From contig JAVKGX010000003.1 of assembly GCA_031432545.1 (NCBI GenBank), forward strand, positions 1 to 64,000: a stretch of 64,000 nt of DNA, in the 5' to 3' direction. Within the stretch, counting starts at the first letter, position 1. Every line of letters begins with the position of its first letter. The DNA is from Armatimonadota bacterium (GTDB lineage: Bacteria; Sysuimicrobiota; Sysuimicrobiia; Sysuimicrobiales; Sysuimicrobiaceae). Shown one piece after another: positions 1,694 through 4,334 of the stretch. A program made the position numbers and the translations under genes. The notes beneath the pieces were generated by a model. The model saw only the letters and a list, made by a program, of their open reading frames with translations. It was not told the DNA's origin and searched no databases.

Positions 1694-3079
1694 TCAGGAG
1701 GAGGGGGAGGAGGTACGCTGGCCAGCGCGGTGGATGGGGATCACGCGGGCGCTGTGGCTAGGTGCTGGGGCGACGGTTTCCTCCGCCGGCGGCTCGATCG
1801 CAGCCGGGATGATCGGTCCCTTCAGTACGCCGCGGGCGATGAGTTCGTCTTCGAGCGCGCGGACCACCGAGAGGTCGTACTCCTTGCCGGCAACACTGTA
1901 TAGTTCCCGGACGGTGGCCTCCGGAGTCTTCGCCGGGCGGTAGGGGCGGTCGGTGGTCATCGCATCGTAGGCGTCGGCCACCGCCAGGATTCGCGCAGGG
2001 TAGAGGATCTCCTCGCCCTTCAGGCCCTGCGGGTAGCCCGAGCCATCGAGCCGCTCGTGGTGCTGGTGGAGGACGTCGAGGGCCGGCCGGTAGAGGCTGA
2101 TGCGTTCGAGGATACGTACCCCGGCTTCGACGTGCTCTTGCATCTCTCCGAGCTCGTCGGCGTCCAGTTTCCCCCGCTTCTGGAGTACGGCGTCCCGGAC
2201 CGCGACCTTGCCCACGTCGTGCACCCGGGCGATGACTTCCAGGTTGTGCAGGTCCTGACTGCTGATTCCCAGGCGCCGACCCAGCGCCGTCGCCAGCTCG
2301 GCCACCCGCTGGGAGTGCTGCGACGTATATGGATCCCGAAGGTCGATGGCGTCGGCCAGGGCCTGGATGAAGCTATCGGTCTCCGTGCGCAGACGGACGT
2401 AGTTCTCGTAGGAGAGTTTGGTGGCGATCATTGGTGGAATCAGGAGGAGCAATGCGGCCGGATGCAGGTTCCAAAGAAGCACAGCGATAACCGCGAGGCC
2501 AATCATTGCTCCAAACACCGGGGCCACGACGGACATATTCTGAAAGAGCACTGGAGGCAATGACAGGCCCTGGGCTACCGAGATTACCATTGCGATCATG
2601 CTACTGTTTGCAACAAAGAAGACACCGCCCGCAAGAAGTGCAGCAATGATGCTATGCGGCAGGGCATTCTGAAAGGCAGTGTTGCCCGCAACACTTTGAT
2701 AGGCGGTCCCAGCGAGAAACACTGAGACCCCGTACGTGGCGACGTTGTAGACCGTCTTAAACCAAGGCTTGCCGGCTTGAATGTGCGTTGTGGTTGCGGC
2801 AAACACCAGTAAGAGAAAGGCCACTGGCCATCCGTAAAGAATGAGAACAGGAAGGGCGATGATAATGGTAAGGGTTACCTCGGTGCCTTCCTTACCAATG
2901 TTGAACCTCGTAGGCCGAAGCTCAGTTAGGATTGCAGCGAAGGTCGCAGACATTAGCACAGCGACGTCCTGATGGAGAACCGGTACTCGATCACTGACCA
3001 ACAGCAAGACAACGTGGACGGCAAGCATGCCGAAGCCTGCTGTAACGACAGCAATCAGCAGCTTTAACTGCGGGCGCAC
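1694..3079 (-). CDS. membrane HD-GYP domain protein, putative cyclic-di-GMP phosphodiesterase
   Basis: The frame is open from GTG 3151 (485 residues). GTG 3079 (461 residues) is preferred because TCCTCC at 3089-3094 gives a GGAGGA ribosome site 9 bases upstream and the protein then starts directly before the first membrane helix. Using the long numbering, about 30-240 holds six or more hydrophobic helices. About 262-440 is an HD-GYP domain with HSQRVAELA, HDVGK (metal-binding HD pair) and HHERLDGSGYP (the GYP signature). HD-GYP proteins hydrolyse cyclic di-GMP; the membrane part has no named sensor domain that I recognise. The 5' region carries a strong hairpin and a tandem micro-ORF array on the same strand. 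Confidence 0.9.
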   Translation of the reverse strand: MRPQLKLLIAVVTAGFGMLAVHVVLLLVSDRVPVLHQDVAVLMSATFAAILTELRPTRFNIGKEGTEVTLTIIIALPVLILYGWPVAFLLLVFAATTTHIQAGKPWFKTVYNVATYGVSVFLAGTAYQSVAGNTAFQNALPHSIIAALLAGGVFFVANSSMIAMVISVAQGLSLPPVLFQNMSVVAPVFGAMIGLAVIAVLLWNLHPAALLLLIPPMIATKLSYENYVRLRTETDSFIQALADAIDLRDPYTSQHSQRVAELATALGRRLGISSQDLHNLEVIARVHDVGKVAVRDAVLQKRGKLDADELGEMQEHVEAGVRILERISLYRPALDVLHQHHERLDGSGYPQGLKGEEILYPARILAVADAYDAMTTDRPYRPAKTPEATVRELYSVAGKEYDLSVVRALEDELIARGVLKGPIIPAAIEPPAEETVAPAPSHSARVIPIHRAGQRTSSPSS

Positions 3080-3122: not shown

Positions 3123-3258
3123 GGGAAGTTAGGGAGCAAATCGCGTGCCACTTAGAACTACAGCCCCTCTGGCCTAGAAGATACAGAAGTGCCGTGTCAT
3201 CAGGGAGTGCGGAGAACTCTGGCTTTATCCCCTGGCGCAGGCACGATGTGCGGAAGCG

Positions 3259-3300
3259 CTAGGCCCAGCGCTCACACTTGGTACGACCCCACTTGTTCAT
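3259..3300 (-). CDS. micro-ORF copy 1, peptide MNKWGRTKCERWA
   Basis: Starts at ATG 3300-3298 and ends at TAG 3261-3259, 13 residues. GAGGAGGG lies 5 bases before the ATG on the minus strand, an excellent ribosome site. Nearest copy to the HD-GYP gene. Translation is likely from the signals seen; function is unknown. It could be a leader peptide, a small effector, or a duplicated gene start. Confidence 0.5.
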   Translation of the reverse strand: MNKWGRTKCERWA

Positions 3301-3354
3301 GCCGCCCTCCTCAACACTGGGGTAGTCATGACGGTGAACTGAGAACTGAAGGTT

Positions 3355-3396
3355 CTAGGCCCAGCGCTCACACTTGGTACGACCCCACTTGTTCAT
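3355..3396 (-). CDS. micro-ORF copy 2, peptide MNKWGRTKCERWA
   Basis: Second exact copy of the 13-codon ORF, 96 bases upstream of copy 1 on the minus strand, with the same GAGGAGGG ribosome site. As with copy 1, a 10-codon ORF (MTTPVLRRAA, 3393-3425) ends in an ATGA overlap with its start codon. Confidence 0.5.
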   Translation of the reverse strand: MNKWGRTKCERWA

Positions 3397-3450
3397 GCCG
3401 CCCTCCTCAACACTGGGGTAGTCATGACGGTGAACTGAGAACTGAAGGTT

Positions 3451-3492
3451 CTAGGCCCAGCGCTCACACTTGGTACGACCCCACTTGTTCAT
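3451..3492 (-). CDS. micro-ORF copy 3, peptide MNKWGRTKCERWA
   Basis: Third copy with identical peptide. Its upstream sequence differs from the other two, yet GAGGAGGG is kept before the ATG. Conservation limited to ribosome site plus coding sequence argues that translation matters here. Confidence 0.5.
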   Translation of the reverse strand: MNKWGRTKCERWA

Positions 3493-3562
3493 AGCGCCCT
3501 CCTCTGGTTTGGTGTGCAGTGCCGGTACCACCGCGTCCGTACGATCCGTCGATGCGTAACGG

Positions 3563-3580
3563 CTAACCCCACTTGTTCAT
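3563..3580 (-). CDS. micro-ORF remnant, peptide MNKWG
   Basis: AAGGAGT ribosome site, ATG at 3580-3578, then codons for NKWG identical to the other copies, followed at once by TAG (3565-3563). This is either a decayed copy or the shortest member of the array. Confidence 0.35.
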   Translation of the reverse strand: MNKWG

Positions 3581-4334
3581 GGCGCACTCCTTAATCCGGT
3601 TTGGCACGGTAGTTGCTCTTGCAGCACTGCGGCTACAAGTGCCAGCGGCCCGAGCCTCCGGCGTGCTGGGTACTACCTGTGTCTGGCGAGGGGGTCAGTG
3701 TGCCCTCGCGTCAGACAAAACAACCGACTGCGTCCGTCACAGTCGGTTGTCCGGCACTTTCCTTGAAGTTAGCTGGAGATTTGACGCACACCCCGTCTGG
3801 GGTCGGCGTCCAAACTCCAAGCGTCAATCCGAGTTCGATTGTCCTGGAAGCTGAAAAGACCCTATCACCCCTGCAGCGCCAGCATGCGGCCTCTACCGCT
3901 GTGCTGTCAAGAAAGTTCGTTTTTCCGGCTGTCCCCCGCTTTCTATATCGGACTCCGTTATAAATGCATGGGCTACGGTTCTGGACAAAGAACGTGCGCT
4001 CGGCCTTCTTCCGCCGCATGTGGGGCGCGGCTCTCCGTAGGCCGGTCCAATGCATGGAGGTTGGCCGCTGGCACAAGCCGAGCGCTGGAGTTCGCTCGGC
4101 GGTGGCAGCGGTGCCTGCTATCATGACCCGGGACGGCCTGGATGGCCTAACGGGTCCATATTGCACTGCACGTGTCGCCACCGGACGGGGCGCACCACCC
4201 GGTCGTGACCGCCTCGAGACTTGATCCCCGTCCGGGGCTTTCAAGCGTGTCATGGGCCGCCGGCTTAAGGTCCGATCGAGGCCGCCGCACGGTTGACCAC
4301 CGGCACCGACCATTGGCTTTCGTGGGGTGACGCC
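3581..4334. other. 754-bp intergenic region with hairpins, no convincing gene
   Basis: This stretch is less GC-rich than its surroundings and carries several inverted repeats: the terminator-like hairpin at 3720-3750, TTGACGC (3781-3787) with GCGTCAA (3821-3827) enclosing ACCCC-GTCT-GGGGT at 3790-3803, and CCCC-GTCC-GGGG near 4226. A minus-strand ORF from ATG 4019 to 3711 (102 residues) has codon use unlike the neighbours and a weak ribosome site; I do not call it a gene. I recognise no tRNA and no named riboswitch. The glgA promoter should lie at the right end and the promoter for the micro-ORF array on the minus strand. Confidence 0.5.
3711..3750 (-). terminator. probable intrinsic terminator or attenuator upstream of the micro-ORF array
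   Basis: ACAACCGACT (3720-3729) pairs perfectly with AGTCGGTTGT (3741-3750) across an 11-base loop. On the minus strand the stem runs directly into TTTTGTCT. It sits upstream of the micro-ORFs and the HD-GYP gene, so it could end an upstream transcript or act as an attenuator for the array. Confidence 0.55.

Follow-up and report, generated by a model that had tools for sequence, protein, structure and literature searches.

A tandem array of micropeptide genes upstream of a membrane HD-GYP gene, possibly a reduced and amplified member of a peptide family associated with c-di-GMP sensors

The window analysed here is a 64-kb stretch of DNA from an Armatimonadota bacterium. Its minus strand carries a tandem array of three identical 13-codon ORFs, each encoding MNKWGRTKCERWA, and one 5-codon ORF, MNKWG-stop, all four of which are preceded by a ribosome site and lie upstream of a gene for a membrane HD-GYP phosphodiesterase (Table 1). 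The sequence thus confirms the original prediction of three identical ORFs placed 96 bases apart on this strand. The genes neighbouring the array are the HD-GYP gene, a glycogen synthase gene, and a glycerate-kinase-like gene. The repeated sequence, ATGAACAAGTGGGGTCGTACCAAGTGTGAGCGCTGGGCCTAG, occurs in three minus-strand copies with a period of 96 bases and forms the only strong tandem array of the window (TRF score 478; runner-up 85). Copies 1 and 2 are identical throughout the full 96-base unit, and copy 3 shares with them an identical ORF and GAGGAGGG site, while its flank farther upstream shows no detectable similarity. The window genome consists of 21 contigs and is probably a metagenome assembly, in which the number of identical 96-base units could err by one. 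Within this 2.19 Mb genome, ATGAACAAGTGGGG is confined to the array locus, and no second site with an NKWG start was found.

Table 1. Positions of the short ORFs, promoters, and associated genes (window coordinates, except for the two histidine kinase loci)
Feature	Position	Strand	Evidence or remark
Membrane HD-GYP phosphodiesterase gene, likely start GTG 3079	1694..3079	-	Pfam HD_5, MASE9, AlphaFold2 model
P2, sigma-54-type promoter TGGCACGCGATTTGCT, into the HD-GYP gene	3135..3150	-	Conserved in five relatives
13-codon ORF copy 1 (MNKWGRTKCERWA-stop)	3259..3300	-	GAGGAGGG at 3312-3305
13-codon ORF copy 2 (MNKWGRTKCERWA-stop)	3355..3396	-	GAGGAGGG at 3408-3401
13-codon ORF copy 3 (MNKWGRTKCERWA-stop)	3451..3492	-	GAGGAGGG at 3504-3497
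96-base tandem array, 2.6 units	3259..3504	-	Tandem repeat search
5-codon ORF MNKWG-stop, sequence ATGAACAAGTGGGGTTAG	3563..3580	-	AAGGAG site at 3592-3587
P1, sigma-54-type promoter TGGCACGGTAGTTGCT, away from the array toward glycogen synthase	3602..3617	+	Conserved in all family relatives
Histidine kinase preceded by KW-tail peptide, weak MASE9 match in membrane part	L148:7748-9595		
Histidine kinase preceded by KW-tail peptide	L149:7742-9592		

The gap between GAGGAGGG and the ATG is 4 bases in all three 13-codon copies, rather than the 5 bases first reported. Strong ribosome sites of this kind (GAGGAGG, AGGAGGG, or GGAGGAG) precede only ten ATGs in the 64 kb, three of which belong to the 13-codon copies. 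The fourth piece had been described as keeping the same ribosome site and the MNKWG start; the start and a ribosome site are indeed present, but the site is AAGGAG at a spacing of 6 bases and not GAGGAGGG. All of these peptides are hydrophilic, and a type I toxin of the Ldr/Ibs type, for which a hydrophobic toxic peptide is expected, was rejected as a candidate. A search against Rfam, at the gathering threshold and then at E-values up to 1, returned no RNA family, and a tRNA search returned none.

Only two sigma-54-type promoter matches occur in the window, compared to 0.03 expected, and they flank the array and read outward from it. Both sites are found at corresponding places in six of six family genomes, P2 having the form GG-N10-GC in the five relatives, and rpoN is present in the window genome. 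A conserved upstream element, AGAGCAA-N5-GTGCCA, was considered as a leader motif and rejected; read from the opposite strand, it proves to be a sigma-54-type promoter. The promoters bear directly on the suggestion that the short ORFs are translated leaders, either attenuators or stalling uORFs, through which the HD-GYP mRNA is controlled. The strong ribosome sites, the Trp codons, and the position of these short ORFs upstream of a regulatory gene are what such a leader would show. However, P2, conserved across all six genomes, separates the peptide ORFs from the HD-GYP gene, and if it is the main HD-GYP promoter, the short ORFs lie outside the HD-GYP mRNA, because transcripts from P2 would omit them. 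The lack of a match to any Rfam family and the occurrence of cross-phylum homologues that are peptides with a hydrophobic core also count against a leader, which we now consider improbable; the earlier idea of a translation-dependent regulator of HD-GYP is accordingly disfavoured. The array sits between two sigma-54-type promoters that read outward, a position in which activator sites are commonly found, and this raises another possibility, namely that the repeats are DNA sites such as enhancers for the two promoters and not genes at all. We judge this very unlikely, since the repeated unit is not palindromic, variation in the 5-codon ORF is confined to codon-silent positions, and homologous peptides are encoded at loci of several other phyla. 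No promoter that transcribes the short ORFs was found at the locus.

Evidence for translation comes from relatives of the same family. The array DNA has no match in these relatives at the DNA level, and no other genome examined has a match to the 13-residue peptide, the 13-codon pattern being absent from about 85,000 genomes; two matches to this pattern in viral contigs were discarded as the starts of longer, unrelated ORFs (317 and 75 codons). A search with the HD-GYP protein identified an orthologue in five family members (49-54% identical). Upstream of HD-GYP, all five relatives with an assembled locus carry a 5-codon ORF that has a ribosome site and reads (M/V)NKWG-stop; 45-82 nt past it lies an ORF of 28 or 32 codons that encodes MNKWG, a hydrophobic stretch, and GKWG, examples being MNKWGKLVLLLSTLASLLVSAGAHGKWG and MNKWGVYVVRLALALSTLASLLVAGGAGGKWG. 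Each of the five genomes has exactly two NKWG starts, both upstream of the HD-GYP gene and none elsewhere. A sixth family genome, which is 72% complete, gave no match, and MNKWG-like five-codon ORFs were not found at the corresponding place in other families. Because the five relatives carry (M/V)NKWG-stop at the same place, the fourth piece of the array is not a fragment of a 13-codon copy, as had been thought, but a conserved short ORF. Copy 3 of the 13-codon ORF lies where the relatives encode their hydrophobic MNKWG...GKWG peptide.

Across the six genomes the 5-codon ORF has four variable sites, all of which preserve the start, the peptide, and the stop (P = 0.0016 by placement). In the 28-32 codon ORF of the relatives, pS (0.21-0.46) is several times pN (0.03-0.10). 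These two patterns are evidence, short of proof, that translation is under selection, as the original prediction had proposed from the preserved coding bases, and the NKWG ORFs are very probably translated. As a sign against such selection, the original prediction had named decay of the repeat without codon bias in related genomes; for the 5-codon ORF and the longer peptide the opposite was found, the 13-codon ORF being known from one genome. The proposal that the array is a duplicated start of the HD-GYP gene did not gain support.

The product of the HD-GYP gene contains the motifs HDVGK and HHERLDGSGYP and matches the Pfam families HD_5 (9.7e-36) and MASE9 (26.7 bits above the cut-off). Its AlphaFold2 model (mean pLDDT 85) places an N-terminal membrane domain before an HD-GYP domain, which matches solved HD-GYP structures (Z 25.9 to 9rbz). 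In fold and motifs the enzyme is thus similar to known HD-GYP c-di-GMP phosphodiesterases (PDB codes: 4mcw, 9rbz, and 4r8z), from which it differs by its membrane sensor with a predicted S-component-like fold and by the associated micropeptide. The sensor domain of the predicted model aligns with TmRibU (Z 17.1, rmsd 2.9 A over 163 residues) and with the NikM-type structure 4m5b (Z 17.1), followed by BioY, FolT, and ThiT, whereas Foldseek alone gives weak S-component matches with E-values of about 0.1 and above. The model therefore predicts for this domain the ligand-pocket fold of an ECF S component. As S components hold small molecules in their pocket, a short peptide end would be a reasonable ligand for this predicted fold. 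CbiM and NikM, too, have small membrane partners. The likeness to ECF S components and CbiM/NikM lies in the predicted fold (Z up to 17); the window domain differs in being fused to an HD-GYP output, and no ECF transporter genes were found among the neighbours examined.

More distant HD-GYP orthologues, from within the same taxonomic order, are preceded by similar peptides (MRWRLLHLVLTLLMLAALLLASGANGKWG, MRWKAVDLLLTLLMLAALVIAGGAGGKWN, and others) and adjoin a gene for DUF5317, a five-helix membrane protein. These peptides form a family of 25-45 residues with a basic start, a hydrophobic core, small residues, and a C-terminal [K/R]W tail, and at a typical locus the micropeptide gene adjoins both the HD-GYP and the DUF5317 genes. 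An M-K/R-W start is found in about half of the peptides, and the tails observed include HGKWG, NGKWG, NHKWG, GGKWS, HFRW, GFHWK, and SVKWHG. Neither Pfam nor NCBIfam holds a model that matches the peptide. To quantify the association, one filter was applied to 82 DUF5317 loci, taken from sampled genomes and from named records (Bipolaricaulota, Chloroflexota, Bacillota, and MAGs labelled Armatimonadota). It asked for hydrophobic ORFs of 20-46 codons that have a ribosome site, encode a tail containing W, and lie at most 650 nt upstream of DUF5317 or HD-GYP. The definition of the peptide was shaped after the first examples had been seen, and the opposite-strand control used the identical filter. 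Some of the ORFs first flagged near DUF5317 were chance frames inside genes and were rejected, after which stricter placement and the opposite-strand control were used. A peptide was found on the coding strand at 45 of the 82 loci, compared to 0 of 82 on the opposite strand. Peptides were present at 38 of 46 loci with HD-GYP and at 7 of 36 loci without it (Fisher 9e-9, a value that overstates significance and serves only as a guide, because the loci lack phylogenetic independence). Of the eight HD-GYP loci that failed the filter, at least three have a variant peptide in the corresponding position, with W replaced by F or missing. At the level of the family, there is little doubt about the association of the peptides with these loci, and the window peptide occupies the characteristic position directly upstream of the HD-GYP gene.

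The association extends to another output domain. In Chloroflexaceae, a KW-tail peptide precedes a protein that combines a weak MASE9 match with histidine kinase domains (Table 1), which makes it appear that the peptide tracks the sensor and not the output. Multiplication of the peptide gene is also found elsewhere. A Bipolaricaulis MAG carries five tandem KW-tail peptide genes of 44-45 codons (L169:3785-4565), the more diverged of which show a pS of 0.45-0.55 compared to a pN of 0.11-0.17, and two further loci, L190 and L128, have two tandem copies each. In view of these recurring arrays, the multiplication in the window is a habit of the family. The earlier suggestion of a multi-copy signal or precursor peptide is supported by these arrays and by the way the family tracks signalling genes across phyla.

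The window genome departs from the typical locus in two respects. It yields no match to DUF5317, which five of six family relatives encode, or to the GAxGKW peptide motif; the window peptides lack the hydrophobic core that is present in five of five relatives with an assembled locus. Judged from the genome sequence, the window lineage has lost DUF5317 and the core and has kept MNKWG and the 13-residue MNKWG...RWA, the latter in three copies. The joint absence was counted in favour of a micropeptide that works with the sensor. The joint loss suggests a task for DUF5317 at the membrane or outside the cell; the cytosolic KWG peptides that are left would either work from within the cell or be relics. 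If they are relics, the peptide gene would have lost its core after the loss of DUF5317, and its remains would have been duplicated by slippage and have no function. This is consistent with the joint absence of DUF5317 and core, with the identity of copies 1 and 2, which are therefore recent, and with the 13-residue form not having been found in the other genomes examined. On the other hand, the MNKWG ORF is conserved and all its changes are silent, copy 3 keeps its ribosome site and ORF intact next to an upstream flank with no detectable similarity to the other copies, the 13-codon ORFs have strong ribosome sites, and the C-terminal RWA echoes the [K/R]W tail of the family. We find a functionless relic unlikely for the array as a whole; the 13-residue form, known from one genome, may be a relic kept by chance. 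That relatives with the complete system also conserve the 5-codon ORF speaks for a separate role of cytosolic MNKWG.

In a Bipolaricaulota MAG, DUF5317 forms a fusion with PAS-GAF-GGDEF (L155:1557-4322), from which it looks like the membrane input domain of a diguanylate cyclase. A DUF5317 model (pLDDT 93.5) gave no significant Foldseek match, and a second look gave weak matches with a Z of 5.2 at best; the weak matches of this predicted model do not establish a new fold. Nothing on DUF5317 was found in the open papers searched, and the sole literature match for MASE9 was unrelated.

Our best reading is that the peptide would act as the ligand of a membrane c-di-GMP sensor or as its small subunit, and that the window carries it in a leaderless, amplified form. 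The chances seem to us evenly balanced that the array belongs, reduced and amplified, to a conserved micropeptide family that works with such a sensor, a function we infer from gene content and conservation. On this reading, the KW(G) segment would be the active part; it would be recognised by the membrane domain of the HD-GYP protein, in the predicted S-component pocket, and its binding would change or set the breakdown of c-di-GMP. In most bacteria, the hydrophobic stretch would present KW(G) at the outer face, with DUF5317 as partner, and the micropeptide would either stay uncleaved in the membrane or be cut by signal peptidase to about five residues. In the window lineage, KW(G) would be made directly as short cytosolic peptides from the 5- and 13-codon genes, and copy number would set the dose. 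A bolder version, which we propose only tentatively, sees a peptide-gated c-di-GMP switch in several phyla, in which the KW(G) micropeptide is the ligand of the S-component-like sensor fused to HD-GYP and DUF5317 is the partner.

The signal-peptide-like layout of the family could also belong to a secreted pheromone. A Sec-exported precursor would be cut after the small residues (SGA, AGA, or GGA), and a short W-peptide would be sensed by the S-component-like domain of neighbouring cells, the window forms being leaderless. The clade-specific, variable tail around a constant W is what a pheromone would lead one to expect, and MNKWG resembles the predicted mature tails NGKWG, HGKWG, and NHKWG. 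Rap-Phr systems are known to include tandemly duplicated pheromone propeptides (PMC11343458), and Firmicutes have leaderless peptide signals (PMC10518010). In an Anaerolineales MAG (L181:2304-6576), a regulator with TPR repeats and a BTAD domain, a KW-tail-like peptide, and DUF5317 follow one another, possibly as a peptide-regulator pair. However, neither an exporter nor a protease was identified; a proline right after the small residues, which is unfavourable for signal peptidase there, occurs in several members from Dehalococcoidia and Chloroflexi; and a secreted C-terminal signal by itself does not account for the N-terminal KW conserved in many precursors. A secreted pheromone is therefore rather doubtful in our estimation.

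Leaderless communication peptides (LCPs) of the SIP/RopB type (PMC10518010) resemble the array in having a tiny leaderless ORF beside the gene of the proposed receptor. Their receptor is a cytosolic RopB/Rgg regulator, whereas the neighbour here is a membrane HD-GYP enzyme, and the relatives have a hydrophobic precursor; no RopB/Rgg-type receptor gene was found among the neighbours of the window array. The RRNPPA propeptides such as Phr (PMC11343458) share a short signal-peptide-like precursor, a short C-terminal peptide, and signal duplications. They differ from the present family in its conserved Trp tail and N-terminal KW, its HD-GYP and DUF5317 partners, and its duplication as separate genes. 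Pfam analysis of the neighbours revealed no Rap/PlcR/NprR-type or TPR-type receptor at the window locus, a TPR regulator lying beside the peptide only in L181. Because the receptors are of another kind, the array was not filed under LCP or Phr systems.

The preferred reading, a peptide that works with the membrane sensor, points to a widespread and apparently undescribed peptide-and-sensor switch for the second messenger c-di-GMP in several bacterial phyla; no description of such a system was found in literature on HD-GYP peptides, DUF5317, MASE9, TM0504, and S-component sensors. For most membrane HD-GYP and MASE-type sensors no ligand is known, and a conserved peptide gene right beside the sensor, in lineages that include culturable members, supplies a concrete candidate for synthesis and testing. 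Peptide, HD-GYP, and DUF5317 genes occur together in two genomes that resemble Thermus. The reading would also give DUF5317 a function and show that five-codon genes can be conserved and useful. A peptide of Thermotoga maritima, TM0504, was reportedly linked in 2005 to a c-di-GMP-controlled exopolysaccharide. By this description it is alike in being a short peptide connected with c-di-GMP signalling in a thermophile. T. maritima also encodes DUF5317.

On the minus strand of the window, a hairpin with a perfect 11-base stem followed by TTTTGT is located at 3715-3750, approximately 140 bases upstream of the 5-codon ORF; it resembles an intrinsic terminator, and no gene was found upstream of it on this strand. 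On the opposite strand, an open frame of 101 codons (3189-3494, +) spans the array because the period of 96 is divisible by three, and it is probably a chance frame.
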